Below are positions 14,501 to 36,845 of a DNA stretch of 64,000 nt, one piece after another. Source of the stretch: Branchiostoma floridae (lineage: Eukaryota; Chordata; Leptocardii; Amphioxiformes; Branchiostomatidae). The notes below the pieces were generated by a model. The model was not told the DNA's origin and did not search any database. It worked only from the letters and a program-made list of their open reading frames with translations. The stretch lies in contig NC_049983.1 in assembly GCF_000003815.2 (NCBI RefSeq), positions 9,343,470-9,407,469 of the forward strand, in the 5' to 3' direction. The stretch's first letter is position 1, and each line of letters begins with the position of its first letter. The position numbers were made by a program, and so were the translations under genes.

Positions 14501-15740
14501 CTGCTATGCTATGGGTACACTCTCACTGCACTTGCGTCAAGCTTGCGTCACTGCGGGGTTCGTTCACTGCGTCATTGTTTTGTTATTTTCTCCTATTTTT
14601 TTTTAAAATTTAGATATTGTGTAATAAGTAAAAGTATGACTTACAAGACGACAAAATACTCAAAACGCAAGAAAACTCGTTATTTACCTCTGACATTCCT
14701 TGAGTGTCTTTCGAACCCCGCAGTGACGCAAGCTCGACGCAAGTGTAGAGGGAGTGCACCTTATATAGTCAGATCTAAATATATGCAGTTTTATACGTAA
14801 CAACAGTCAAATACCAGAGTTGAATATATCATTGAAATTGACACTTAATTAGGTTTCTGATATTGCAAAATACGATGCATTAAAGTGTGAGATATGCCTT
14901 ATTATTTGCTATGTATCAAATCGCACAAATGTCTTGAATTTCGTTTTCAAGGTATGTTACCATTCTACGAGAACCTTTAGAACGGCTCCAGTCTGCCTTC
15001 AAGTACTTTCATCTACAAAGTTTTTTTCACGGACTTGTAAAAAATACTCCGCGTGAAATGGACCCTGTTGTAACGTACCTTACCAGACCAGAGTACTGGG
15101 ATCCACGATACCGGCCACCCGAAAGGGCAGATAACAAGGAACGTTTTTGCGTCAGGAACTGTATGGCTCGGGACTTGGGTCTTAAGGAGAATGATTATTG
15201 ATTATGACAACAAGACTGCTGTAAAAGACTTCGTTAAAGTCACAGAGAACGATTTCTCAACGGTGCTGATCTTAGAACATTTGGAGGAGTCTTTAGTCTT
15301 ACTCAAACGGCGGATGTGTTGGACGTTTCTTGATATTCTCCACACGCACAAGAGAAGGCAAAATTACACCGGGAAGACACTTATCACTGCCGATGTTAAA
15401 GACAAGTTTTACAAACACAACAACGCCGATGCAATGTTGTACACTCGTTTCAATACCTTGCTCCAAAAAGAGATCAAGAAAGAGGGTGCTGATTTTCTGC
15501 AAGAGGTGGAATATTTCAAGCGCGTTAACGAAGACGTCAAGCGCTATTGCGACTCTACGAAAACGGGAAGGCGGGGAGAGATGGTCGTTGAAAGAAGCAG
15601 ATGGAATGACGCTTTCTCTATTGGAAGCACATTTTGTGGACGTTATGAACAAGGCAGAAGAGCTTGGCATTACAAACTACTACCAGCGTATCATAAAAAA
15701 GTCAATATACATATGCACACAGGTGAGGAGTTTGGCTTAA
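11519..15740 (+). CDS. galactose-3-O-sulfotransferase-like protein, with two apparent frameshifts
   Basis: Predicted Golgi type II membrane enzyme moving sulfate from PAPS to galactose on glycolipids or glycoproteins (Gal3ST family). Exons: 11519-11599, 12003-12101, 12805-12899, 13705-13872, 14373-14480, 14952-15740; phases agree. Exon 1 has a short hydrophobic anchor (LTAVLCLVCFSGVAW). Residues 104-114 (FLKVHKCGSTT) form the 5'-phosphosulfate loop, and 187-198 (TILREPLERLQS) the 3'-phosphate-binding segment; NIFAHHAIYNRTRFRQLM is typical of the family. In the last exon the frame meets TGA at 15199-15201, while homologous sequence (DFSTVLILEHLEESLVLLKR) continues from 15191 in the next frame; a second shift of the same sense lies between about 15550 and 15590. 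The end is taken as TAA 15738-15740, but a GTGAGG donor at 15723 could lead to another exon. It may be a pseudogene, an allele, or an assembly error. Confidence 0.75.
12660..12716. repeat. two-copy short tandem repeat
   Basis: Two near-identical units of about 28 bases containing TGTTATATGTATAGATAATT, in intron 2 of the sulfotransferase gene. Confidence 0.6.
13113..13670. mobile_element. foldback element with long inverted repeats, interrupted by a second foldback
   Basis: The left arm begins TAATCCTGGACAAACAC, followed by CCGGAAAACCTTAATTATTT; the right arm is its imperfect inverse, ending AGTGTTTGTCCAGAATTA. Arms exceed 100 bases. The centre (about 13270-13345) has several copies of CCAGAATTCTG. 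The right arm is split by another foldback at 13474-13645. It lies in an intron of the sulfotransferase gene, ending about 35 bases before an exon. There is no coding content, so it is a non-autonomous DNA element. Confidence 0.75.
13473..13645. mobile_element. TAGCCTGG-type foldback element, nested copy with 9-bp target duplication
   Basis: Starts TAGCCTGGGTACCATCCGG and ends with the inverse, ACCCAGGCTA; the inner arms AGTAGTTCGCTCC and GGAGCGAACTACT also pair. GGATTAGAG flanks it on both sides as a direct repeat, fitting a 9-bp target site duplication. It is inserted in the right arm of the foldback spanning 13113-13670. Confidence 0.78.
14110..14250. mobile_element. small foldback element related to that at 42970-43155
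   Basis: Shares TTCGCGGTAG and TAGTCACATACTGTAATG with the copy in the C2 gene. It starts near TTACTGTTACG. Boundaries are approximate; it lies in an intron of the sulfotransferase gene. Confidence 0.5.
14514..14760. mobile_element. palindromic element family A, copy 1
   Basis: About 50-base inverted ends: the left contains CTTGCGTCACTGCGGGGTTCG and the right CGAACCCCGCAGTGACGCAAG. The AT-rich centre matches copies at 15770, 37112 and 55941. It begins 33 bases after the donor of sulfotransferase exon 5. Confidence 0.8.
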
Positions 15741-15769
15741 CCGGCAAGTGATGCATTTAGCCTTCCTAC

Positions 15770-17113: not shown

Positions 17114-17297
17114 TTATTACTAGCATATGCATGGTATATACGTATTTAGCAACGCAAGGGTAACTAAAACCCCTTAAACATGCGACGTACATCTTGCCCT
17201 TCTTGATTTTGAGGCACCAGTTTGTGGACGTTTCTTTTACAAAGCCCTCCTCTATTTCGTATCCTACAGGTTGAAGACGTTGAAATCTTAACACGTT

Positions 17298-19847
17298 ATG
17301 AGGATCTTAAGGCGCACTCGAGGCTCTTTTTGCCTGGTCTTGGCTGTCGGGTTCCTTCTATCGTCCTTCTACATCCTTGTGGTGAGGAATCCCCGAGCCG
17401 GCACGGATAGAAAAGATGATGAGTTGGACACGAATCACATTGCCGGCGGAATGGACCAAGCTGTGAGGATGACTGTACGAAAAGACACCTCTCCCGGTCC
17501 CAGCAAAGCGCCTTACCTCACAACAAATGAGATTGGCAAAGCTTCAGCAGGAACTGAGGAACGTGCCAAAGAAAATAGTTTAAACGTACGTTTACAAAAC
17601 ACCGTGTCAACAACATCCACAGAGGCAATCGATCGCCACACAGAAGTACTCAAGATCGAAGAGATCGCAATGCACACGGAGCTCGAGGTCATCCAAGAGG
17701 GAAAACCTGTTCAAACACCAACACTGATTTCACGTAACGTCAACAAGGATCCTCTTAACGAAGCAGCCACTACCGAGGCCCAGGTCAGCAGCAAAGAATT
17801 TCATGAAATACCTGCAAATAACCAAAAGGTTTTCGAAGTTCATTCTGAAGTTGTGAACGGGAGATCTCTCTCTAGTTGGTCAACAGCGATGAGGCGTAAT
17901 AGTTCACAGAAAAGTGGAGGCCACAGCGATGACGTAACTCAAAGTTACAGCCGAGAGCAGCCGTTATGCAAATATCCGGACTTACAGATGGAGAGCTCAG
18001 AATTCAACCACCTTTTTGAAACAATAACAAACTTGAACTGCGGGCATGCCTCTATCAACTACTTGACATATCTAGACGGGAACTCGCGGACGGATATATT
18101 TCCTTGGGATGTAGTCAAACTAAACTCCAGCGCCATCTTACCGACACAGAAATTACTCAACTGCACGTACAGTAAGATTACGAGATTTGATGATTTCCAT
18201 AGCCTCTATACTACTTTGCATACAAAAGTATTTGTATCCAACGACGAAACTTTACAATTTCCGTTCAAAGACGAATTTAGTAAGGTCACCTGTTTCTTGG
18301 AAGAGGCTGTCTTTAACCAAACACAACAAGCATCTTCTAAAGTTATCAGAGAACACAATAACATGTTTGTACAGGTAGTAAGGAACGAATCTCTGGTCAA
18401 AGACAAAAAGGCGGAAATAGAGAAGGAAGGCCGAATGAAGACGGCCCTTGGACATGGTATGAACGTGCTCATGGTCGGAGTAGACTCGACCTCACGGATG
18501 AACTTCATGCGAAAACTGCCCAAAACTTTCAAGTACTTCACAGAGACTCTGGAGGGTCACGTTCTGAAGGGTTATCACGTGATTGGTGACGGCACCACGG
18601 CTCAGTTCATCGGCATGTTGTCAGGGTTTCACGAGGAAGAGCTGCCCAACGCGAAAAGGGGAATGGAAAATTCAACAACCTGCGACGCATTTCCGTTAGT
18701 ATGGAATAAGTTCAGAACGATGGGTTACACGACCATGAACGCGGAAGACGAAGCGGGCACTGGGACGTTCCAATTTCGTCTACAAGGCTTTGAAAATCGA
18801 CCAACTGATTACTACATGAGGCCTTTCTGGGTGGCCCAAGAAGGCCTCCCAGAGTTTGAAGAGTGGTTCTGTTTCGGAGCAACCCCTAAGCATCACTACA
18901 CCCTGAAGTATGCCCGCGATTTTGTGGAAGCATATCATGACGTACCCAAGTTTGCCATTGCGTTTCACACTGAACTCAGTCACGACAGTATAAACATGGT
19001 GCAAGTTGCCGACGAAGACATTCTGACACTCATAAAATCCTGGAAGGACAAAGGCTACCTCAACAACACCATTTTTATTCTTTTTGCCGACCATGGAGCC
19101 CGCTACGGTGGTCTTAGGAAGCTACTTCAAGGTCGACTGGAGGAGAGGCTACCGTTCTTTGGAATCGCTGTTCCTCCTTGGATGAAGAAGAGTCATCCTG
19201 AAATCGTTCGGAACCTCAAGAAAAACGAAGAACGTCTGACGACAGCGTTCGACTTCCACAAGACGCTGCAGCACGTGCTGGACTATCCCGGCGACCCCTC
19301 GGGTTTCCAGGGACACGGCCTCAGCCTCTTCCAGGAGATCCCGCTGAACCGAACATGCGAGGACGCCTCCATTGCCGATCACTGGTGTACCTGTCTGCAG
19401 TCCGTAACAGTCAACATACAGAACGTACTAGTTCAAGAAGCAGCAGGTTTCGCAGTCTCCCACATGAATCGTTTAACAGCAATGCACCGAAGCCTTTGTG
19501 CTGAGTTGTTCCTGAAGAATATAACTCACGCAGAACTTATCAAACCCAACAGCAAACTGCTACAATTTGGTGGCAGTGACCCACGGTCTCGAAATGCCCT
19601 GTTTGATAATGGTCGAAATCTTGATGTCCCTTTCCTGGATTTTCGAATTACGCTGGAAACTGGACCGAATGGTGGAGCATATGAGGTGTCAGTAAGGAAA
19701 TGGCTGTCTAGTGAGAAAACTGAGATAACCGCAGACATCAGCCGCATCAACGTGTACGGGAACCATCCCAGCTGCATCCAGGACAAATTTCCTCGTCTGA
19801 GGAAATACTGCTTCTGCAGAGAGTTCATGAATCCTGTGTCTCCGTAG
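17298..19847 (+). CDS. DUF229 family membrane protein (alkaline phosphatase/sulfatase-like fold)
   Basis: 849 residues in one coding exon. An acceptor-like CCTACAG ends near 17270, so an untranslated exon probably precedes the ATG. Residues about 10-29 (SFCLVLAVGFLLSSFYILVV) form a signal anchor, giving a type II protein with a lumenal or extracellular C-terminal part. Residues 40-230 are polar and low-complexity, like a stalk. The conserved domain runs from about 230 to 840. VGVDSTSR (393-400), HTELSHD (557-563) and FADHGARYG (596-604) carry Asp, Thr and His residues at positions used for metal or nucleophile in this superfamily. Sulfatases have a Cys or Ser in CxPxR, which is absent here, so the reaction is unknown. 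Many NxS/T sites suit the secretory pathway. The downstream gene is convergent. Confidence 0.88.
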   Translation: MRILRRTRGSFCLVLAVGFLLSSFYILVVRNPRAGTDRKDDELDTNHIAGGMDQAVRMTVRKDTSPGPSKAPYLTTNEIGKASAGTEERAKENSLNVRLQNTVSTTSTEAIDRHTEVLKIEEIAMHTELEVIQEGKPVQTPTLISRNVNKDPLNEAATTEAQVSSKEFHEIPANNQKVFEVHSEVVNGRSLSSWSTAMRRNSSQKSGGHSDDVTQSYSREQPLCKYPDLQMESSEFNHLFETITNLNCGHASINYLTYLDGNSRTDIFPWDVVKLNSSAILPTQKLLNCTYSKITRFDDFHSLYTTLHTKVFVSNDETLQFPFKDEFSKVTCFLEEAVFNQTQQASSKVIREHNNMFVQVVRNESLVKDKKAEIEKEGRMKTALGHGMNVLMVGVDSTSRMNFMRKLPKTFKYFTETLEGHVLKGYHVIGDGTTAQFIGMLSGFHEEELPNAKRGMENSTTCDAFPLVWNKFRTMGYTTMNAEDEAGTGTFQFRLQGFENRPTDYYMRPFWVAQEGLPEFEEWFCFGATPKHHYTLKYARDFVEAYHDVPKFAIAFHTELSHDSINMVQVADEDILTLIKSWKDKGYLNNTIFILFADHGARYGGLRKLLQGRLEERLPFFGIAVPPWMKKSHPEIVRNLKKNEERLTTAFDFHKTLQHVLDYPGDPSGFQGHGLSLFQEIPLNRTCEDASIADHWCTCLQSVTVNIQNVLVQEAAGFAVSHMNRLTAMHRSLCAELFLKNITHAELIKPNSKLLQFGGSDPRSRNALFDNGRNLDVPFLDFRITLETGPNGGAYEVSVRKWLSSEKTEITADISRINVYGNHPSCIQDKFPRLRKYCFCREFMNPVSP

Positions 19848-21373: not shown

Positions 21374-24300
21374 TCATTGCAATGTCGCTTGGAGATGCTG
21401 CAGCCCGTCCGTCCATGGCTCTAACTTCTTCGCATCGGTAGTCTTAAAGTAGTACGTTCTCTTGGCGGTGGCAACGACCAAGGTGGAGTCCGCTGTGGTG
21501 GAAAATGCGTACCATTAGTAAGGTTTGTCTAACAAGATACCCCCCCCCCCCCCAAAAAAAAAAACATAGCTTCAATCAACAGCGATCTGGAATAAGGATA
21601 TATAGATTTCAAGGTACTGTCACATATGTAGATGACGCGTGAACACATCCTCACCCATGCGCACCAGGCACACAGATAGTTGTATCATACCTTAAGCTAA
21701 AGGCACAACTCGCCGTACGTGCAACTGCGTGCTGTATACGTGCCAAAACGCGGGCAATCTTTTGGGATCTGTAAGAGGTAATTACCGAATTCGTATGAAA
21801 TCCTTTGGGAGCACGCCGACACGCCGTAGCACTTATAGTGCATGCAGAGCTTTCTCTACGTTCGGGATACGGATTCACCTCCCATACGAGACCGGATGGG
21901 CGACGCGCTGGTTCCCTCGCGGGTTAGGAAACCGTACGTACGCAGCACGTGTAAGTACGGCCTGCATATGGTAACGTGGCAATCGCACAGAGTTTGTACG
22001 TTGTAAGCACGTATAACTCACCACTTGCGCAACTAATGATGCACGCAACCGCTCACAGCATGCAGACCACATACTTATAACCTTAAGCAACCGTACGAGT
22101 GACGTGCGTTGACTTACTCCCTCCCTGCTCTTGCCAGTCGTTCCCCACGTATAAACGTGGCGGACGTGGCCTCCCAAGAAAACGTACGGACAAAAAACAC
22201 GTACTGCGGGTTGTGCCCTTAAGCTAGGGGCACAACCCGCCGTACGTGCAAATACGTGCTGTCTACGTGCCAAAACGTGTATCCGTAAGTGGTAAGTACC
22301 GTCTCCGTACGAGCACGTAGGGAATTCGACGAATTTGGGAGCACGCAGACACGCCGTAGAAAATTAAGTGCATGCAGAACTTTCTCTGCGTTCGGGCTGC
22401 GGATTCGCCTCCGTACGTGCCAGTACGGGCGACGTACCAGCCCTGTACAGCCAATGAGCGCACAACGCACTGGCTCAGTGAGTTTTCTCACAGTCAATTG
22501 TTGTACGGACGGCGCACGTAGGACGTGCGTGCTGCGCACGTGGTGATTGCGTGTTCCGTGCTTACTCCGCGCTTCACTTGTTCACCTGTGAATGCCGACG
22601 CAATACAAACGTGGCAACCGCACAGAGACCGTACGTTGTAAGCACGTGCAACTCCCCTACCACTTGCGCAACGAACGATGAACGCAACCGCTCTAAGCCA
22701 GGCGTGGCGTGCAGACCACGTACTTACACTTTGCGCAACCGCGCGTGTGACGTGCGTTGACGTACTCCCGCCCTGCTCTTGCCAGTCGTTCCCCACGTTT
22801 TCAGGAATACGTGGCGGACGTGGCCTCCATAAAAAACGTACGGACAAATTGCACGTACCGGCGGGTTGTGCCCCAGGCTTTAGCTTTAGCTGCGGCCTGG
22901 TGTGCGAATATTGCGTGTGCGAAGGATGACCAAATCATCCCTTACCTGTGTGGATCCCGGTGATATCCCGAACAGGCAGCGATCCCGTCTGCAGCTGCCG
23001 GGAGGGTCCCCAGGAAATGGCGGCACGTGTCGGGTTGGAGGGATCAAGCTGTAGGCGCACCACCCGCCTGTGTTCGTCATTCCTCGCTGTTTTCTTTATG
23101 AATGACGTCCCTGAGGAATTGAATGAATATAGCAATGGTTTTAAAGTAGGGACCATATCCCAACTGTAACAGTAAAAGACAATAAAAATGCATACGTATG
23201 TATTCAGGACAGTACGTATTGACGCGTATGCACAGTAATACAAAGTATTGCAATTTCTAAAGTGTTTCAAGACTAACATGTTTTTGTAAGATGGACTTAC
23301 GATATGATACTGCATTTTATTTTATAATACTGAAAATTGTCCATGATTGACTATACCTCTTTTCATTTCGTGTATGTACCGCTCGTAGTCTCTGTGAATG
23401 GCGGACTCCAGTCTGTCAATCCGCGCCTCATCGTTCACAACCGTCCCGTTGGTAAGTTCTGACTGTCCCAGTAGCTGGATAGTCCCGTCCTCTCTCCACC
23501 ACGCCTGAAGCCCTGTCCCGACCACATCTTCACCAGTCCTCGGCCCTCCATCCTGACCCGTCACTACTTTATCTGTGTTCAGCAGACCCGGTGCAGAGAT
23601 GAACAGTTCACCTACTTGGTTGGATCCAAGGCACCTCCCTTGCCCGTCCAATATGTGCGCTGTTGTCTTGTGAACAAGACCTAGACTTGGAATACTGTCA
23701 CCGTTTGGCTGATTCACTTGCCGGTATTGTGTGTACAACACAGCCGAGTATGCATGTGGGCTACTAAGCATCAGGGTCAGTTGGGTGTCAGGTAGAACCA
23801 TTTGTAGGCGCGAGGCTAGGCTGTCGTCAACCCCTGGTACTGGTTGAAAAAGATGAGCCAGGTGAAGCTCGTGACCAGACTGAGACTGCAACTTCTGCAA
23901 GATACCTTCCCACACTTCACTGCGTATTGCCCCTACACTGGTGACTCGGTGCTCCTCCAGTGCGACCAGTAGCTTCTCTGGGTCATTCACTGTCGACTCG
24001 GGAAGGATGAGCAGTGGAGAACCAACAAGAAGGGGCAGGAACATTTCGTACAAAGCTTCTACGGACATGATTGGCGATATGAGGCACCCAACGTCATTTG
24101 CTCGGACAGGTAGAGCGTCCCACATCCATGTCAGACGGTTGAGCAAGCCGACATGGTTGCCTGACACAATGCCTTGCTTGTTGGAGTGGGTGTCTGTCAT
24201 AACAAACGCTTTCCGCGCTGGCATCAGTGGCAGGTTCGTGGATTCGTTCTCGTCTCTACCGGTTTGTTCCAAAGGTACAGTGACAATGTGACCGCTGAAG

Positions 24301-27300
24301 GACCCAAGCTTTGTTAGTAGATCGGACCTTGTGTCTAGATCCACAACGATGACTTGTATGTCACAGTTTCGGACAAGCTGCTGAAGTTGTTCAGCTTCAT
24401 CATGAAGGCAAATAGGAACGAACGTCAAGCCGGCTTTCCAGATTGCAAGAATGACGCAGGGTACCTCTTCAGAAGAGGACAGACAGACACCGACGTTCTC
24501 GTGTTTGCCTTTCAGGGCGGACTTGAACCGCATAGCTGCCATCAGGGTCATTGACACAACCGACATAGACGTTGTACTAATACCTGCCGTTTTTGTCACT
24601 TGTACGTTTCCACCCTGGCGTTTCAATTCTACAAGTGCGCTGGTCAAATGTTGAACTGATTGGTTCAGCTGACCATAGCTGACATTGTTGTTGCTTGTAA
24701 TGATAGCCGTGTGTGATGGCGTCCTGGAGACTTGCCTCTCAAAGAGTTTATCGAGACGACCAACAGATTTCAAGACATCGTCCATCGGAAGTATTTCCTC
24801 AAGCCCATCCTCGTCTTTAAATGAGATCAACCGCTTTGATCGAAATGTCTTCGGTCCGTTTCTTTTTCGTCTTGGCGGTGCAATGGGACCACTCTCTGGC
24901 AATGTCTTCTTGAGCTGGTCGTAGACTAAGTCGCTGATCGACTGAACCGTTGACTCTTGACTCAGTAAGGCGACAACTGGCACGTCTACATTAAGCTGTT
25001 TCCTGAATATGCTTTGGGCGTTTAGTGCTAGTTGGGAGTCCATTCCCAAATTAACAATTGATGTGTACATGTTTACCGTCTCGTCCTCTGCGCTCAACAG
25101 TTTGACAAAGAGGAGACGCGTGAAGTCCCCAAGTGACTTTTGCTGAGCTCGTTTATCCATCTTACTCAAGTTGCCGACAGTAACACTCGTCACCACGGCA
25201 GTGTCGTCTGGGCTTGACTCCGCGGGACCTCCTAGAACCACCTCTAGCCTCTTGAAGTCGGGCAGCTCCTGCAAAAACTGCCTGAACTTTGGTCGGTCGA
25301 GATTTACCACTGTAATCTGTGAAGGATTGGCGATGAGGCAAGTCTCCAAGCTCTCACAGATGCAGTCCTTGTCGATTGGAAGAATTCCTATCTGCTCCAG
25401 AAACTTCGCAACTTTTCTGTCTCTTTCCAACAGGCCGAGCTGCAAAGCACCCCAGTTGATGACCTGACCGCTTAGCCCCAGCTGGCGACGAAGATGCACT
25501 ATGCCATCTAGGACAGAGTTTGCAGCCCCGTAGCTTGTCTGTCCGCCATTACCCAGAACGGAGGAAACAGAAGAGAAGCCGACAAAATAGTCCAGGTTTA
25601 GATGTCGTGTCGCAAGATGTAAGTTCCAGGTCCCTGAGACTTTTGCACCCATGCCCCTCTGGAACTGCACGTGGTCTTGATTGATCAGAACTCCGTCACT
25701 GATGACGACAGCACTGTGAAACACACCCTTCAGTGGAATCCTGGGAAATGAGATATGAAGTTCTTCAAGTGCAGAGTTGACGCTGTCGTAAGACGAGACA
25801 TCGGCCTGCAGATATATGATTCTTGCTCCGAATGTTTCTTCCAATGTCTTCAGCTCTGCAACGACGTCCTGTTTGGGCTGACTCCTGGACATGATCGCTA
25901 TGTGGCCGGCACCTCTCTCCGCAAGGAATCTGACGGTGAGGAATCCCAAACCGGTGAGCCCACCGACTACGATGTAGGACGCATCTTTCCGGAAAAGTGT
26001 CTGCCTGGTGCAGATCACAGGAAGCTCTTGTCCATCAAGACGTAGGACACGGAGGGACTCACCAGCGACAGATCGATCATTCTCGGTCTCCTTTTTGTGC
26101 AAAAGGGAAGATGAGAGGTGACTGTTGGTGACTGGTATCTGAATCATAGCATGCTGAGGTAGGCTGTGAGAGAGCCACTTGAACACCTTTGGCATTATGA
26201 CCTTCAGGTTCGTCTCTTGAAACACGGTACATGTGCTAACCTGCAGGATCGTCACGTCTGATCTGATCCACATGGGAGACGTTCTGCTGCGTTCTTGATC
26301 CGACATCTGCCCACAAATGTACACCACACGACCGTTGGTTGCAATCACATCCGACAGCTGAGACCTCAGCCGCTTCCGTCTTCTGACGACGATTGCAACA
26401 TCGTACTCTTTCTCCGGGATTCCTGTGTGGCCATGTGCACATGTCATGATTTGACAGGTTGATCGTAATGCGTTGGCTACGGCTGCAATCACTCTCGTCT
26501 CGATCATGGCTGATTCTGCATGCTCATCTATCACCACAATCCGCTGCTTGGGCTTGATGTGTAGTTGGTTCACCAAGATCTCCCATGCCAATACAAAATA
26601 CGACAGACAAGGCGTTTCACACAAACATGGTAGGTCTGCCAACTTGTGGACTACTGGGGCAGGGAGTGAGACGACGGAAGAGGCCACAGCAGGGTAGATG
26701 CCCACAACAAAATCTCCAACGTGAAGTTTGCACTTCTCAGGCACCTTGGTTACTGTTCCCACAAAGTCCAGACCAAGTAGGTCCCAGTTCTGGTTGCTGG
26801 AAGCTGACCAGTGCACCACCGTTCCATCTTCTGATTCCCGCGTTACTGGATACAAGCTCCCCGGATGCACATGGAACTGTTGAACGTTTACAATGACACT
26901 ATCTTCAGCACCGGTAGGCGTTGCTTCAACATTACCTTCGTAAACGGCATGGATTCTCAAGGGCTCCATAGTGTCGGCTGTTTGAATCTTCAGTCTGCAA
27001 CCACTTTCGCCACGATTTGTGCGATACACTGCGCTTTCAGCATGCAGTGTAGATGACTGAATCTCCAAGAAGTATTTCTTACTTCGCACAAACATGATTT
27101 CGGTGTAACTATTCAGTTCTCCAGTGACTAGTTCATGCAGAAGCGTATGGGTCTCCCAGTGATCTCCTCTCGACAACTCGACTAGCTGTAAGGATGGGTA
27201 GGCAGCCTCTCTGATAGCACAGCGAACCAGGCCCCATAGAGGTGTCCCCGCTAAGTCTATCAGACTGACGGAGCTCTGGTCTTCCAAGAGAGTCGATGGC

Positions 27301-30300
27301 ATTTCCTGCCACATCGAGAACTGGACATTGCGCGTCACGACTTTCAGAGGGATTGTCTGCCCACTGGCTACAGCCATCTTGATCAGCTGCCTTAGACTTG
27401 CACAGGCGAGTTGGATTCGGGCGTCCAAAGATTCCGTGTCCGTCGTCTCTGCTTCTAGTAAACTAATACCGCAGCAATGAAGAACAAGATCAACGTCTGC
27501 TAGATTGACATTATTGACTTGAAGCATCTTCTGCAGTGCCTGTTCGTCATTCTTGTAATCTATGCTCTCGATGTCCTGGAGAGGGATGAAGACAGATTCG
27601 GAGCTGACCAGCGGCTTGATGTGATCCATGATCCCACATTCATCTTCAAGAACGAGACACCTGAGGTGACACGTTTTGTTGATCAGCTCAGGCCCAATCT
27701 TCCCCTTCCAGTCAGACGAATAACCTGTCCAACTTGTGGTGTAGAACATGTCCGCAAAGTTACTTGGGCTTCCTTCTTTCCAAAACCTGATGGTCAGTCC
27801 CCTCAGCTCAAGTATAATCTGACCATTGGTTCCAACTATGACTCCATTCGATGTCATGGTCCCTGCGGTTCTTCTGCTTTGTTTCACATACACCCACATC
27901 TGTTGTTCGGGAGGTTTCACGACTACAACACTTTCAATAGAAACTGGGAGAAAGCTCACTCGACGACCTGCTGACTGTTGTAAGATGTCCAGTCCTAGTA
28001 GAAAGTGTGCCTGCAGCAAGCAGTCGTGTATAGCAGGGTGGATACAACAGCTGTGCATCTCCTGTGCCACCAAGTCGTGGACATCGATGAAGGCAATGGC
28101 CTCCTTTCCACCAGGTCCGTCTCCATAGCGACATTCCCGCAGTCGGCTGAGCGTAGGTCCGTAGTAGAAACCTGTCGTTTCTATCTTGTTGTACAGATCA
28201 TCGTGGCTTACAGTATCATTGCAGCGATAGCGGATATCATCTACGTCCAAGTTCTCAATGGTCTGTTGCTTGTCTGGCCCATAGGTGACAGTCCCTCTCG
28301 CATGCAGCGCTCGCTCTGTCCGCTCTTCGAAATGGACCAGTTGTAAAGCTTCGTCGTGTTGGAGGCTCACATTGATATCAACCTCTCCCCCCTGACTCAC
28401 GGTAACTGGTGTAAGGAACTCCACACTTGTCCTGCAGTTGGACACTGGTTGTCGCGGTGTTATGACTTCTATGCACGCTGCTAGTCCCAGTTCAAAGTAG
28501 TGGGCACCGGGAACAACAACAGTGTCGTCCAACACGTGATCATACACGTAAGGGGTCGTCTGCTTGCTTATGGAGCACTTGTACAGTGGGGGAGTTGCCG
28601 ACACATGTGACAAGAACGGGTGAGTGAATCCGCTACTGAGGTCACGGCCTTGGCGTCGAGCTACAGCTTTTTCAGTTTCGAACCACAGTGGTTTTCGAGC
28701 AAACTGGTAGCGTGGTACGTCTATTGGAGTGTGCATTCCTTCAACGAAGAAAGCGTCCCAGGTCGGCATTAAACCCGCTTGATACAAATCGCAAAGACTA
28801 TGTAGGATAGATGCATGCTCTTGGTTTGGCTTGATGGACGCCACGTAGATCAAAATCACCTCAGATGCAATTTGTTTGATGTTGCTTCGCAGAGCAGCTT
28901 TTGGTCCGACCTCCATAACGATGTTTTGTTTTCCACGATGTAGGGCTTCTGACATTGCGGTACTGAACATCACCGGTTGCCTAACATTTCTCCCCCAGTA
29001 TTCTCCGGTAACAAATTCGTCCTCTGTAGCTCTCTTCCCTGTAACAGTTGAGTACAGTTCCACAGTAGGCGGCTGGCCTTGTAGATCTCTCAGCATCGAT
29101 TCTAGTACCTCTCGGATGGGCTCCATCTGGTGACTATGGTAGGCCGCTTTCACATCCAGCTCTCTCAAAAACAGTTGGCCGGCTAAATCGTTCTCGTTCA
29201 TCGCCTTCAGAACGGCATGCAGCTCATCGATTGCAGCATCATCGCCCGACACCGTGCAGGAGGTAGCGCTGTTTTCGGCAGCCAAGCCAACTTTACCCGA
29301 GACTTTACTGCACATGTCCAGCACCTTCTCTACCGGGAGATTCCCGACAACCAACATCTTCCCGCCGGTGACTTCATTTTGTAGACGTCCCCTGTGGTAG
29401 ATGACACGTACGGCCTCCGGTAGTGACAGGGTGCCTGAACAATGCGCTGCAGCCACTTCGCCCACTGAATGGCCGAGAATGGCATCTGGTGTGATGCCCC
29501 ACGACTGCCAAAGGGCGAACAGCGAGACTTGTGTAGCAAAAATGATGGATTGTGCTACAATCGGGACATGGAAGTCCTCTTTATCTGACAGCTTATCAAG
29601 TAGAGACCACTCCACGTGTTGACAAAGCAAGTCATCGACTTCAGTCAACTTTCTCCAGAATACAGGTTCTTTGTCAATCAGGTCCAGACATACGCCCTCC
29701 CACAACGTTCCTTGTCCTCCGAAAACAAAAATAACACGTTTGTCAGGCCCGACGTCATCCCCACGACCGGTCTTCCGTCTGATTGTCCTTGTGCGCACTG
29801 CTCCTTCTATGCCGGAAAGAGCATTCTCTAAAGATTGTTTTATGCCATCAACAGTGCTACCTGACACTGCTAACCTGAAATTGTGATGTGTTCTCCTCAC
29901 AGTTGACGTGTAAGCCAGCCTTTCAAGCGAGATGTCCGGGTTTTGCTCCAGATGTTCGATCAGGTCCTCAACCGACAGCTTCAAAGATTCCCTTTTCCTT
30001 GCAGACACGACCACCACGTACGCCTTTCCCTGCTCTTTGTTGACGTGTTCTGGAGACTCGTCATTGTCTTGGGGGAACTGTTCAACGAGTGCGTGAGAAT
30101 TTGATCCTCCAAACCCAAAGGAGTTCACGCAAGCCAATCTCCTGTCCTTTCCCCGCAGTGTCCAATCCAGTACCTCAGTCGGCACGTACAGTCGTAGGTG
30201 ATCAAAGTCTATGTTTGGGTTAGGTCTGTCGAAGTGCACGTTTGGCACGATTTGTTTGTACTTCATCATCAGTAGAACCTTGATGAGACCGGCCAGCCCT

Positions 30301-33300
30301 GCGGCGGACTCCAGATGGCCGATATTGCCTTTGACAGAGCCTAGAAGTACGGGGTCGTCGTCAGCCTTTCTTGACTTGCCTATGACGTTGCCCAGACTGT
30401 TTGCCTCCACTGGATCCCCGACTGGTGTGCCTGTTCCATGAGCTTCGATGTAGTCAATGTGGTCGGGGTCGAACCTGTAGCGTTCTAAGATGCTGCGGAG
30501 TAATTTCTCTTGCTGTGACTGTGATGGGGCAGTGATGGGGATGGTGGTGCGACCGTCCTGGTTCACTGCCGTATGAATGACGCCCCAAATGTGGTCGTTG
30601 TTTTCTAATGCCTACAGAATGCACATAACGGAAGGAGCTTTCCTTTTATTCGATTGAGGAACTGTTCTTGGGTTTCAATCATATGCGATGACTCTGCACT
30701 CTAACTCACACTATGTAGCTACCGCAACTGTTTTGCTTCTGAGTGCTTCTTGTTCTGGTATTTACATTTTCGTTCTTTGACGCAAACTTTGCCATGCACC
30801 TACATTTTCTCTTTGAGGGGGGGGGGGGGTATGCAGATCATATGTGTAGATAGTACTATACCAATGTACCTACCAAGTAGCCTTACCCAAAACTTTATCT
30901 CATATTGTATCTATTACCTTTTTTGTGCCATAAACTTATTTCAACCTGTTTCATAAAGTATTGTATTTTGGGCTCCATTACGTTAACAGGAAAAACGGTA
31001 AATGCTTTGAGCTGAGTCCAGAATAGAAAATGTCGAATAGGATGTTTGGATACAGCCTCTTTGTCATTTTCATTCTAAATGTATGAAGGGGCATGCGTAA
31101 GGGGACATATTGGCCAGTTACCCAGAAAAATCTATATTCAGAACTACTGCGTCATTATTGAACACATAAAAACTGACAATTTATTCTTAAGTTTATTCTA
31201 TGCATCTCATTGCAGGGTACTAAATGTGGAAAACACCACGATGTTAGATTTGAATTACAAATTTACACGCCATCTTGCCACTTGCGCTATTTTTTAACTT
31301 CCAAAAAAACGTCGCGCTTGCTTGTGTCACCTCTAGGTTCGCTTGTGTCACCTCTATAGGTTCGCTTCCGTCACCTCTAGGTGCCCCGGGGTCACGTCTG
31401 CGTTGTCGAACCCCGAAGCGACGCAAGCGTGACGCGAGTCTAGTGAGAGGGGACCTTAAACCACTAGTGGACCATACCACATCTTACATGGGTGGGGGCC
31501 AAACCAACTATACAAATAGTGTTGCTTACCTTGCTAAGCTTTTTAAGTATGACGACACCACATCCCTCCCCGCGGGCGTAGCCGTCAGCTGCAGCCGAGA
31601 AGGGTTTGCACCGTCCTTCGGGAGAGGCCATGCCCGCTCGGCACAGCGACACGAACATGTTCGGCCGGAGAATGAAGCTCACACCCCCACAGACAGCCAT
31701 GGAGCAGTCGCCTGAAATGATTTGTGTGTATATAAAGGGGTAGAACGGCAAAGAGTGTACACACTCTATTTTGATAAAAAGTGCTGCTAAACCTCAGAAC
31801 TAAATATTCAGACCATTCTTTGCCAGGCTTAGTTTGTCTTATGTTCACCTTCAGTAAGACTGTAAGAAACAATCGTCGCAAGTTTATATTGTCATTCTTG
31901 TTTAAAGAGGAAACAAGAGCGCAGTAGACCCATGTCCTGTCTATGCGCCCTCTACCCTGGAGAGCAGGTCCTACGGCAGGCATAAAAATCTGAATGACCA
32001 GGAATAAGGTGGGGTGACATCCTAGCCTCTACCAGGCCCCTTAGGTCGCAAACTGTACTCCTCGGCCAACCAACTCCTCCGGTGTGTTTTTTGTCAATTT
32101 GGTCAATTTCTACTATTTTTCCAGCGATCTGGTAGCCTGGCATTCAGCCGTATTGTGCTTTGGTCGCTCCCCTGAAGGAGGAAGCAGTATCATAGGGGAG
32201 CGACCAAAGCACAACACGGCTGGATTCCAGGCTAGCGATCTGGGGAGCCTAGTAGAGACTAGTGACATGTGGCCACAGGCCAAAATCAATGCGCGCCCGG
32301 ATGTCATCCACAGAATTAAGTCAGCGTGGCCTAAGCTAAGCTTGACGTCAGCAAAATTGCAAATACCTGTCTTGATAGCTTGGCAGCCGAGATGCACAGC
32401 GTACAGTCCTGACGAGCAGGCGGTATCCACGGTGAGGGCCGGCCCGGTCAGGTTGAAGGTGTAGGCCACCCTTGCCGCCACCAGAGAGGTAGCTGTCCCC
32501 GTGATCGTGTGGTTGGTCATCTGTGTCAGGTCTATGTCACCATCCAGTAGATACTCAGTGTTCATCAGGCCTGTTGGAAAAGATTATATGGTGTACATCA
32601 CTTAAAAATTGTTGAATTTTGGATTTTTTTAACATGGGTTTTTAAAATGTAGACTTTAGGTTGCTGTGTCACGAAATAGCCAACTGATCTGGAATTAGGT
32701 ATATGGCACTAGGAATGGAAAATGGGTTATACTAGTCCATTTTCATAGATGGTGTTTCATAGATGGTGTTCCGGAAGAATCTATTTTTGTATGGTGCAGT
32801 GAGATACCACCTATAGCTACAATGTATGAATTAGTAGTAGCTTAGTTATTCTTACCAACGAAGACACCGGTGTCGCTGCCATGCAGTTCGTCCATTGTGA
32901 TGCCGGCATTTTCAAACGCCTTGTACGAACACTCCAGCATGAAGCGCTGCTGGGGATCCATTCGTGATGCCTCCTCGTCCCTCAGGCCGAACAGGCTTGG
33001 ATCGAACATCTTGTATCTGGAACGTTTTGAATCAGTTAAGAAAAAAAAAACTGTTATGCACTTAATGTATCATGTAATACGAAAGTTACTGTACTTACGC
33101 GTTGTGATATTTGTAAGTTGGGACATAGACTGGTTTATTGAATTGAAACTCATTGCAGCCAAAAAGCTGAACTGCGACATGTACAATTACGAACATATTG
33201 CATACGTTACAGGTAAAATACGTCAATCAAATTATATACTAGTACTTGTGCCCCCAATTTACAACACATGATAAAATGCAATAGCCAATACTCATCAATG

Positions 33301-34601
33301 CTAAGTAAATCTTGAGAAGCAAACAGTGTTTAATAATCGTGCACCATATTACAATATTTTATTCGAGGCTTTTTTATGAATATTTTTTTCTTGAGTCACT
33401 GTGCTGTTTTCTGAACTGGTTACCATACCTACCACGACATCATTGACTGAAACAATTGGATTACCTTGGGACGAAATCTTTGAGTCTGTGGAATGATATT
33501 TTGATGCCGCCATGTTCAATAACAGGAGAATGGTGTATTTTGGGTGCAAAGGTGCATTTGTGTGTTAAATGAATATAATACTATCAGTGTTGTAGAATAC
33601 AAAAAGAAAAGGAAGTTATACCCTTGGACAAACCCCGCCCTCTGCACGAATATTTTCCCGGGTGCGTTCTTGTCCGGACTGTACCAGGCGTCCTGGCTCC
33701 ATCGGTCAGGTGGGATTTCCTGAAGGAAAAATTGACACGAACGATATCTTATTTGTCCCGGACGTATTGCTAAGGAAATACCTTTCCGGAAACAAACGCA
33801 TTTATTCAAGTTTTGTCGATTAAAAAAAAGCATTTGACTCCGTTGTACCAGGTGTACTGGCTCCTCCTGTCAGGTGGGATCAGGAGGAAAACAACACATT
33901 TGTCTTTGAACAGGTCCTTGGAACAAAGTCATATTCATGCGGAAACTCACATGTGCAGAGTAACGATGGAACTGTCGTATCAGCACGGGTTTGACAAATA
34001 TTTCTTGAGTCATTCATTATTGGTTACGCTTGTTACGGATGGATTTTGATAGGCGCTCAGTACAAGCGGGTGCTCTTTTGTATCAACATAACTCTGTTAT
34101 AAATAGTGGTAGAACAACATTGTTACAACGACTTAAAGATAAGTTGGTGTGTTGCACCGAAGGGCGGTTACTTCGGCTATAGCTATACCGATACAGATAC
34201 GGAAAAGAAATGTTAGATTGTAGTGGTATTGGTAGTAGTGGTACTAGATTTTCTGACATGTATAATCAAACCTTCTGCCATAATCCGAGTACTGATACCG
34301 GTAAGCTGAGGTTTATATGACGTGCAAAACAGCATATATAATGGGAAATAATTTTGATCTACGCTCTGCAATTAGCAAAATTAGAATCAGAGCCCACCCC
34401 CTAGAAATAGAGAAAAGGTGGTACAAGAAGCTACCTGTGTGCGAAAGAATGTGCAAGGTAAAGAAACTAAAAGTGCTATCGTACCTCCATACAGTCCTCC
34501 CCGTTAACCAGGACTCTCCAGAAGTCGTCCGGGCTGTCTGCGTGCGGGAACCGGCACCACAGACCCACGATGGCGATAGAGTCCTCCGGCGGAACCGCCA
34601 T
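21374..34601 (-). CDS. type I polyketide synthase with adenylation-like and PH-like C-terminal domains
   Basis: Exons from the start: 34601-34485, 33719-33622, 33016-32856, 32570-32367, 31711-31530, 30611-23357, 23110-22946, 21492-21374; 8301 bases, 2766 residues, all phases consistent. Start: [19 protein letters not shown] in an ACCATGG context. KS: active Cys177 (DTACSS), His312 (EAHGTG), His353 (GNIGH). AT: FGGQG, Ser636 (GHSVGE), His746. DH: His946, Asp1117 (DCLLQ). ER-like region, about 1470-1770, lacks the glycine-rich NADPH loop. [10 protein letters not shown] near 1805, Ser1935, Tyr1948, Asn1952. ACP: Ser2113 (LGMDS). About 2205-2670 resembles an NRPS adenylation domain ([40 protein letters not shown]) but with decayed ATP-binding motifs. 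Residues 2673-2766 look like a PH domain. No thioesterase is seen. It should act in the cytosol, making a reduced polyketide from malonyl-type units; the product is unknown. Confidence 0.9.
21541..21565. repeat. homopolymer C/A run
   Basis: A run of C followed by a run of A in the last intron of the polyketide synthase gene. Length in the assembly may be unreliable. Confidence 0.7.
21702..22218. mobile_element. CGTACG-rich inverted-repeat element, copy 1
   Basis: Starts GGCACAACTCGCCGTACGTG and ends GCGGGTTGTGCC, an inverse. It is rich in CGTACG and ACGTAC words. It is flanked by CTTAAGCTA on both sides, possibly a target duplication. It has no supported coding frame and lies in the last intron of the polyketide synthase gene, splitting its PH-like domain. 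Confidence 0.65.
22228..22874. mobile_element. CGTACG-rich inverted-repeat element, copy 2
   Basis: Starts GGGGCACAACCCGCCGTACG and ends CGGCGGGTTGTGCCCC. It follows copy 1 by about 10 bases in the same orientation; both contain GCATGCAGA-CTTTCTCT near the middle and CCCTGCTCTTGCCAGTCGTT toward the right end. It is longer than copy 1 by about 130 bases. Confidence 0.65.
31310..31455. mobile_element. palindromic element family A, divergent copy 3
   Basis: The right half (TCGAACCCCGAAGCGACGCA, then GAGTCTAGTGAGAGGGGACC) resembles the right arm of copy 1. The left half is replaced by short repeats of GTCACCTCTAGGTTCGCTT. It lies in an intron of the polyketide synthase, about 75 bases beyond an exon edge. 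Confidence 0.5.
32133..32234. mobile_element. TAGCCTGG-type foldback element with 9-bp target duplication, 102 bp
   Basis: Starts TAGCCTGGCATTCAGCCG and ends GGATTCCAGGCTA; the arms TTTGGTCGCTCCCCT and AGGGGAGCGACCAAA pair exactly. GCGATCTGG flanks it on each side (32124-32132, 32235-32243). It lies in the fourth intron of the polyketide synthase. Confidence 0.85.
33123..33192 (+). mobile_element. possible LINE 3'-tail fragment
   Basis: TGGTTTATTGAATTGAA followed by GCAGCCAAAAAGCTGAACTGC resembles the plus-strand view of the LINE tail at 34850-34945 (GCAGCCCAAAGGGCTGAATTGC). Short and diverged; orientation as written here is opposite to that LINE's coding sense. Confidence 0.35.
33842..33892 (-). 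pseudogene. decayed partial duplicate of polyketide synthase exon 2
   Basis: On the minus strand this segment reads close to [13 protein letters not shown], against [15 protein letters not shown] in exon 2 (33719-33622). The plus-strand match covers CCAGGTGTACTGGCTCC and CAGGTGGGAT. It lies about 120 bases upstream of the real exon in intron 1. It is too short and eroded to be a usable exon. Confidence 0.5.
34340..34455 (+). mobile_element. LINE coding fragment (C-terminal region)
   Basis: Plus-strand frame reads [20 protein letters not shown] followed by a cysteine-containing end (VCERMC), similar to the minus-strand LINE remnant at 36750-36845 (ELRRAITKIRICSHKLNIE). It is a short fragment in intron 1 of the polyketide synthase, in antisense orientation to that gene, and its frame then runs into exon 1 antisense. 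Confidence 0.5.
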
Positions 34602-34844: not shown

Positions 34845-36486
34845 GTTAGTAGTAGATTGGTTTATTCATTCAATTCAACAAGAATGACAAATTAAAAGCG
34901 GTCTTGCAGCCCAAAGGGCTGAATTGCACTGCTTGACAGTCTTTTTGTATGTTATTTTACACAAAAATTATTATAGGATAAGCAAATGCGGAGTAAACAA
35001 ATTATTACAATTTAAAATGCAAAACAATAATACGCAACACCGTCGTTAAAAGTAAATTTGAGCTATTTACAACAACATCATACATTGATGGGCTATGTGT
35101 TGATCAAGCGTGCCATATATGGGACGGCGCTGTTTCTATATCGCTCTGTTCTACAATGAACCAAGTCCAAGTTGTTTGAGGAGCGGGTCTGTCTGCCACT
35201 AATACTCTGTCTGTCCGGTGGCAGGAGATGACGGTACTGGCTGGATGTTAGAAGGGACTTAGCAAACTTAAGTGTCAAGTTCTCACGCCTCTGGTGAAGT
35301 GAGGGTAGGCCAAGCTGTGAGCAGGCTTCAGCATAGCTGGTGTAGTTAGCTCCCAGGATTATCCGCACTGCTCTGCGTTGGATTCTCTCGAGTTTGTTGG
35401 ACAGGGATGTTGGCAGCCCGGGATGCCACACCGGTGCTGCATACTCGATGATCGGACGGACGTAGGTGGTGTACACGATCACAAGGTCTTCAATTCCGAT
35501 GTGGAAGTGTTTGAGTTTTCTGAGAAAGAACAAACGCTGACTGGATTTAGAGTACATGTAGTCCACGTGGGCATTCCACTTCAGGTTATACTGCATTAAG
35601 ACGCCAAGAATCTTCATGGTTTGAACCTGTCGTAGTTCGTTGTTGTTGATTTTGAGGGGCGGCAGTATGGATACTGATTTGCTGAACTTCACATGTAGAA
35701 CTTGGCATTTTCCAGGATGTAGTACCATACTGTTTTCACCAGACCATTTCTCTAGGTCAGAAAGGTCGTTTTGCAGGGACGAAGGTGTTACGGTGGGGTT
35801 TCTGATCTCTAACAGGTTTAAATCGTCCACAAATTTCCATCTTTTGGCTGAGATTTGACGCGCCGCACTGTTGATGTAAGCCACAAAAATCAGAGGCCCA
35901 AGAAGAGTTCCCTGGGGTAGGCCGCACGTTATGGTGGCACTGTCGGAGAGGGTTCCTTGATAGCGGACGACTTGGCGTCTCCCCGTGAGGAAGTCAATGA
36001 TCCACGACGTAAGAGACGGACGCAGACCCATCTCCATCAATCGGGTTACAGCGATGGTGTGGCTTACCCGATCGAACGCTTTGCTGTAGTCAGTAGATAC
36101 CAGTGAGCACAGGGTTCCCGGTTTGTCTGACGCCTTGTACAGATCGTTGGTTAAGTCCAGCAGGCAGTGCGTAGTCGACCTCCCTTTCAGGCATCCAAAC
36201 TGTTGGGGGTCGATCTGAGGTAGTATGTCAGACAGAGTCCACTGTGTGATGAATCCTTCAGCGATTTTGGCCAACAGGGAAGTCAATGATATTGGGCGAA
36301 GTTGATCGACAGAGGGCGGTTTTGTTTTGGGCACCGGCACCACGATCGCACTTTTCCACTCGTCAGGTACTTTCCCCTGTAGAAGAGACGAGTTGATGAC
36401 GTCAGAAAGTGGTCCACTCAGTTCATATGCAAATTCCCTGAGGAGTTTTCCCGGGATACCGTCCGGTCCAGCAGCTTTCCTGGTTT
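34845..36486 (-). mobile_element. CR1/L2-like non-LTR retrotransposon, 5'-truncated, intact partial reverse transcriptase
   Basis: Reverse transcriptase of a LINE that copies its RNA at the target site. The minus-strand frame is open from 36486 to the stop at 35093, about 464 codons. It enters in the fingers region (AGPDGIPGKLLREFAYEL), then VPVPKTKPPS, LRPISLTSLLAKIAEGF, STDYSKAFDRVSH, GLPQGTLLGPLIF, and the catalytic FVDDLNLLE (canonical [F/Y]xDD). A thumb region with YVRPIIEYAAPVWHPGL follows. The endonuclease domain is missing, so it is a dead 5'-truncated copy, although its frame has no stop. A 3' UTR with GCCCTTTGGGCTGCAAGAC runs to about 34845. The clade assignment is by eye. Confidence 0.85.
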
Positions 36487-36845
36487 TTACTTTCTGGTTC
36501 TACGGTCTAGGCAATCGTGGATATATCTGTCTACTTGTACACAGTGAGGGATATCGCCTCCCAGAATGTAGTTGAATTTATCTATCGAACAGAGAGTAGC
36601 AAATTCTTTAGAGCAAGTGGAAAGTAATGTGAACAGCTCTGTGCGTTTGTCATTATATCGTGAACAATCCATAACAAAGTGACGTTCGTCTTCGATCTTA
36701 TTTGAGCAGAATGGACAAAACCTCTGGTCACGGGGAATTTTAGTATATCTTCCGGCTTCTATATTTAGTTTGTGACTACAGATTCTTATCTTTGTAATTG
36801 CTCTACGAAGTTCAAAACTGTGTACATTCGAAAGATACTTTTTTG
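36487..36845 (-). mobile_element. second LINE, C-terminal coding remnant
   Basis: The minus-strand frame reads FELRRAITKIRICSHKLNIE, then a Cys/His zinc-knuckle-like segment (RFCPFCSNKIEDERHFVMDC), and ends DRRTRK with a stop at the junction with the LINE inserted downstream. This C-terminal block is common after LINE reverse transcriptases. Upstream reverse transcriptase sequence is not recognisable here. Confidence 0.6.

Follow-up and report, generated by a model that had tools for sequence, protein, structure and literature searches.

An amphioxus polyketide synthase with a degenerate adenylation-like domain and a probable PH domain at its C-terminus

The 64,000-nucleotide stretch of Branchiostoma floridae DNA analysed here (NC_049983.1, positions 9,343,470 to 9,407,469; hereafter the window) carries on its minus strand a gene for an iterative type I polyketide synthase (PKS) whose carrier domain is followed by an adenylation-like domain, called A* below, and by a short tail that is probably a PH domain. 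The reading we favour, and to which we give about an even chance, is that of an iterative, partly reducing synthase that its PH domain would put in place and in which A* would remain as a non-catalytic core. For most animal PKSs, neither the function nor the release step is known, and this gene family offers natural copies with A* and PH, with PH only or with neither: ready-made comparisons for studying membrane placement and the role of a pseudo-adenylation domain.

Gene structure and synthase core

Eight exons join in phase into 8,301 nt encoding 2766 aa with one terminal stop, and all seven introns are of the GT..AG type; the single spliced frame proposed in an initial annotation of this DNA is thus borne out by the reconstruction. 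We infer the splicing from the sequence and from conservation in paralogues, which were sought in the 513,431,437-base assembly of the species (431 contigs; the window lies on contig C5). The first exon recurs in the nearest paralogue, C9a, with 97% identity. The exons and the domains that they encode are as follows, with the evidence in parentheses.

34485..34601, minus strand: exon 1, start codon and N-terminus of the ketosynthase (KS) domain (splice model)
33622..33719, minus strand: exon 2, KS (splice model)
32856..33016, minus strand: exon 3, KS (splice model and KS matches)
32367..32570, minus strand: exon 4, KS with active-site C177 (splice model, KS matches and motif position)
31530..31711, minus strand: exon 5, KS (splice model and KS matches)
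23357..30611, minus strand: exon 6, 7,255 bp, KS C-terminal half, acyltransferase (AT), dehydratase (DH), enoyl reductase (ER)-like part, ketoreductase (KR), acyl carrier protein (ACP), A* and the first PH residues
28860..29732, minus strand: AT domain, Pfam stretch (PF00698, 1.1e-51)
27777..28622, minus strand: DH domain, two Pfam stretches (PF21089, 6.6e-11; PF14765, 1.1e-18)
25998..27773, minus strand: DH-KR interval, degenerate ER-like part (weak match to the ER of CurF, E 5.6e-4)
25443..25982, minus strand: KR domain (PF08659, 6e-54)
24924..25109, minus strand: ACP with S2113 (PF00550, 1.3e-4, and motif position)
23409..24806, minus strand, approximate limits: A*, adenylation core of the nonribosomal peptide synthetase (NRPS) type with degenerate catalytic motifs (PF00501, 1.7e-22)
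22946..23110, minus strand: exon 7, first part of the PH domain (splice model and family profile)
21374..21492, minus strand: exon 8, second part of the PH domain and stop (splice model and family profile)

Exon 6 stays open for 2,429 codons, far beyond chance. Because this one exon carries the protein from the late KS through the AMP-binding region, the fusion of the two is not a splicing guess, and the initial annotation was right to describe it. Pfam finds in this exon KR, AT, the KS C-terminal half (3.2e-38), AMP-binding, DH and PP-binding, in that order of strength. The key residues named at the outset are all where they were placed: C177, H312 and H353 in KS, S636 in AT, H946 and D1117 in DH, S1935 and Y1948 in KR, and S2113 in the ACP, each of which we take to be catalytic. 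With KS, AT and ACP carrying their active residues, and with DH and KR beside them, the protein has the make-up of an animal iterative type I PKS. The wording 'related to fatty acid synthase' (FAS), used in the initial annotation, is loose: against solved structures, the KS-AT part scores 408 to 332 bits with bacterial and fungal PKSs and 274 bits with mammalian FAS (PDB scores, best 60 of 109 matches), a contrast drawn from the PDB scores, since the trees used below contain no FAS row.

The ER-like domain is weaker than the initial annotation had it. The stretch between DH and KR has no Pfam match, and a profile built from three sequences of it matches only the start of the CurF ER, over about 90 positions, with the glycine-rich nucleotide-binding stretch of that ER aligned to unrelated letters in the window protein. 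A functional ER is not supported, since Pfam gives none and the CurF alignment is partial and weak. Pfam also finds no thioesterase (TE), condensation (C) or reductase domain in the window protein.

Intron 7 (21493-22945) holds two direct copies that have diverged and are broken into pieces (79 nt at 86%, 71 nt at 89% and 61 nt at 90% identity), spaced about 530-650 apart, and ACGTAC words are abundant there.

The adenylation-like domain and the PH-like tail

A* is an AMP-binding core, with 80.2 bits to PF00501 against a cut-off of 29.9, and it falls well below the NCBIfam cut-off for amino-acid adenylation (TIGR01733, 78.1 of 317.4 bits). Its nearest solved relatives by profile are NRPS adenylation (A) domains, led by LgrA (E 2e-44); used as a single query, the window domain has tyrocidine synthase 1 as its closest solved match. 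In the profile alignment with LgrA, the TSGSTGKPKG loop and the TGD motif are replaced, and the alignment ends before motif A8. Patterns for motifs A3, A7 and A8, which we wrote ourselves, occur in none of the six amphioxus copies of A* and in 41, 37 and 35, respectively, of 44 bacterial relatives; the latter were selected with two peptide patterns from A* itself and so are near relatives rather than a random sample. The NRLxW stretch after A3 is kept, and by sequence the core fold is retained. No AMP-binding C-terminal subdomain, the part with the A10 lysine, is found by Pfam in the window gene or in paralogues C1c and C9b; PH-like sequence follows instead. A* is thus probably catalytically dead. 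The proposal of the initial annotation that the C-terminus releases the chain or hands it on is not supported, on these two points, the motif patterns and the missing subdomain.

PH domains often bind membranes. A PH-type Pfam family is matched in all eight paralogue tails at E-values up to 1; PF00169 is found in seven of them (best 0.0043), the best PH_12 match reaches 8.9e-5, and the C9b tail scanned together with its A* gives PH_12 at 0.0018. Of eight shuffled sequences, derived from four of the eight tails, none matched a PH family, and the one match obtained (0.061) was unrelated. Run against the PDB, a profile built from all eight tails finds Centaurin-delta 1 (0.0038), a pleckstrin homology domain (0.0059), ARAP3 (0.019), a Plasmodium PH domain (0.021), a tandem PH protein (0.17) and an ARF1 GAP (0.25); antibody chains follow from 0.38 on. 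Both tail introns lie at matching positions and in phase 1 in all eight paralogue tails (splice sites read by eye), and the alignment gives the paralogues a basic beta1-beta2 stretch. Taken as a family, the tails resemble PH domains, and the window tail is probably one too. Proof from the window sequence alone was attempted and failed: a single-sequence PDB search with the window stretch found no PH domain, and the support comes from the paralogue family. Of the tail described at the outset, then, profiles recover the AMP-binding part outright, and the PH part is probable through the paralogues and under the cut-off in the window alone. From the sequence we infer that the synthase may be tethered to a membrane or to phosphoinositides.

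Selection on the tail can be compared with selection on the core. Over 2,754 codons aligned between the window gene and C9a, the ratio of nonsynonymous to synonymous substitution rates (dN/dS) is 0.25 overall, with 0.18 for KS, 0.17 for AT, 0.23 for DH, 0.20 for KR and 0.04 for ACP; it is 0.29 for the DH-KR interval, 0.31 for A* (0.23-0.42 on resampling) and 0.41 for PH (0.22-0.72). A ratio of 1 or more was reached in 0 of 1,000 resamples for A* and in 1 of 1,000 for PH. The tail is under purifying selection, and its constraint is weaker than that of the core.

Paralogues and competing explanations

A genome search with the A-PH stretch returns the window and five loci, at 75% identity over the best stretch for C9a, 32% for C9b and 29-31% for C1a, C1b and C1c. 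The tail also closes two further loci on chromosome C1 that have a C domain, L047 (C1:15.87M) and L049 (C1:28.88M). In all, 35 KS matches fall into about 15 genomic places, and the tail is present in eight; six other KS places were checked for it by whole-genome searches only, which can miss diverged tails. A PH query on the same genome gives ten exon matches in the five C1 genes and reaches C9b only at E 0.9; because neither the window copy nor that of C9a was recovered, the lack of a match at other loci is weak evidence.

The C-terminal ends of the relatives vary. Three (C1a, C1b and C1c) read C-A*-PH, two (L047 and L049) go from C to the PH tail without A*, and one ends in a bare ACP. This last copy, L096 (C4:19505500-19513500), is 57% identical to window residues 246-2165 and ends right after its ACP, with no A* in the following 1.7 kb; it groups with the window gene and C9a, not strongly supported (93/89). 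The C domain, a mark of PKS-NRPS hybrids, is thus found in five C1 relatives and not in the window gene. Pfam finds TE and C in C1c and L049, and TE in C1b and L047 is seen in the translations, where the C1 relatives show a C motif HHxxxD and a TE serine motif that appear intact and are presumably catalytic. Separate C1 exons were assigned to genes by spacing and strand, without assembled models. In this assembly, a one-base frameshift, either genuine or an error of assembly, interrupts A* of C9a (L021/L022, C9:14.917-14.932M). Also at this locus, NGDRTP-like repeats follow one another in frame.

In a tree with 43 of the 44 bacterial rows (one fell under the length limit; all comparison rows are bacterial), the six A* copies form one group (100/100) that splits into (C9b,(window,C9a)) and (C1a,C1b,C1c). 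A KS tree of 12 rows shows the same split, so that a single origin and joint inheritance of A* fit best; and, since each of the two main branches has A* and PH, the simplest history is that C4 lost them and that L047 and L049 lost A*. The tree program flagged long branches in both trees and in the one used to place C4. A further group of PKS/FAS-type KS sequences, L001-L004 (C1:16.5M, C11:12.3M), stands separate in the KS tree.

Placement of the synthase by a PH domain has several observations against it. The window stretch alone reaches 17.9 of 25 bits with PH_3 (E 0.0031), below the Pfam cut-off, so the assignment is credible only with the paralogues; none of the eight tails passes the Pfam gathering score for PH; three non-PH families match single tails at 0.03-0.1, comparable to PH (GerE 0.031, RSE1 propeller 0.034); and the full C1c tail scanned with its A* gives no PH at E 0.5 or below. 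The tail is dispensable in the C4 copy, which nests with the window gene and ends right after its ACP, and all of the paralogue comparisons come from the genome of one species. On the other side, related copies keep, trim or drop the tail, which suggests that it places the enzyme rather than catalyses, and we count in favour of placement that PH is kept after the loss of A* in L047 and L049.

The same losses can be read as decay, with the tail a relic of a PKS-NRPS hybrid that has little or no function. The loss of A3, A7 and A8, the dropping of the whole tail in one paralogue and of A* in two, the C9a frameshift, and dN/dS in A* and PH above that of KS, AT, KR and ACP all suit a relic; but the ratios for both parts are clearly below 1, and six copies, one with the frameshift, keep the A* core open down to about 28-34% identity (four of the six A* rows used in the identity alignment, two left out). 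We regard decay as unlikely, if deserving of attention. About the same weight goes to a tail that serves as a docking device, its PH-like domain binding not a membrane lipid but a partner protein, another subunit of the PKS or itself. Many PH domains do not bind phosphoinositides, and the PH similarity here is weak, whereas the basic beta1-beta2 stretch of the paralogues would suit acidic lipids. An A* that still works through a non-canonical mechanism, to load, release or transfer the chain, would agree with its retained core fold and with purifying selection; against this stand the absence of A3, A7 and A8 from every copy and of the C-terminal subdomain from the three copies scanned with Pfam, and we hold it to be improbable, having rejected active adenylation as likely on the motif scan and the LgrA profile alignment. 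A pair of adjacent genes, one for a PKS that ends at the ACP and one for A-PH, would recall the C4 paralogue. However, a single uninterrupted exon joins ACP and A* in the window, and in C9a, C9b, C1a, C1b and C1c, too, the open frame continues into A*; this separate-gene reading is rejected on the single exon and has hardly any probability left.

In the favoured reading, a PKS placed by its PH domain, the order KS-AT-DH-pseudoER-KR-ACP would work iteratively, reducing and dehydrating the chain and probably leaving out enoyl reduction. A* would be a core inherited from an NRPS-like module and stripped of its ATP-handling motifs and mobile C-terminal subdomain, the place of which would now be occupied by the PH domain; it may serve as a structural core or docking surface while PH positions the synthase on a membrane or a partner. 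As neither TE, C nor reductase is matched in the window protein, a separate enzyme would release the finished chain, and the window lineage may descend from an ancestor like the C1 relatives, with TE and C lost on the way. Release in trans by those relatives, which share the tail, is possible, given their apparently intact C and TE motifs. As a bolder extension, which we consider a long shot, the shared PH tail might be a common address that gathers complementary synthases on one membrane, where the TE and C domains of the C1 enzymes would release or acylate window-type chains and the dead A* would dock. If true, this would mean animal assembly lines that are split and put together on a membrane.

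Three other frames lie in the window: a Galactose-3-O-sulfotransferase-like frame at 15074-15751 on the plus strand (2.4e-14), an 851-codon frame at 17292-19847 on the plus strand (DUF229 1.6e-119, sulfatase 1.6e-6) and, just upstream of exon 1, a reverse transcriptase frame at 35093-36499 on the minus strand (RVT_1 2.5e-25).

Comparison with known systems

The NRPS A domains of LgrA, tyrocidine synthase 1 and GrsA in the PDB resemble A* over most of its length; unlike A*, they have the ATP-handling motifs and the C-terminal subdomain. Among animal PKSs, the table entries of Hojo et al. 2015 (PMC4604110) include medaka OlPKS, KS-AT-DH-KR-ACP, and sea urchin PKS-2, KS-AT-DH-ER-KR-ACP-TE, which share the core of an iterative animal PKS and for which no A or PH is listed there. 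In the same source, the nematode PKS-NRPS hybrid C41A3.1 is, like the window gene, an animal PKS fused to NRPS parts, but it is multi-module and has ACP and TE after its AMP domain. Saccoglossus kowalevskii XP_002734101, KS*-AT-DH-KR-ACP-C-AMP in its table entry, is another deuterostome PKS that ends in AMP and, unlike the window gene, has a C domain.

In the portions available to us, a survey of animal NRPSs from 2023 groups the A domains of Branchiostoma close to Ebony and mentions condensation domains, and the words amphioxus, lancelet, adenylation and NRPS never occur in a 2024 paper on animal FAS and PKS. The terms 'pleckstrin', 'PH domain' and 'adenylation' are likewise absent from the text of PMC4604110, whose available passages make no statement on the activity of the AMP domain, and a full-text literature search, with most subscription papers outside its scope, turned up no paper that describes a PKS with a PH domain or A-motif loss in the amphioxus family. 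The PH tail and the A-motif loss were thus not found in print, whereas Branchiostoma fusions of PKS and AMP-binding domains were tabulated in 2015. Table 2 of Hojo et al. lists Branchiostoma PKSs ending in AMP or C-AMP, among them BRAFLDRAFT_90481 (KS-AT-DH*-KR-AMP) and 96863 (KS-AT-DH-KR*-ACP-TE-C-AMP), and for amphioxus these entries contradict the premise of the initial annotation that such synthases normally stop at the ACP or a release domain. Like the window gene, these Branchiostoma floridae models are PKSs with a C-terminal AMP-binding domain, and, matched at the level of the family, they probably belong with it to one gene family.

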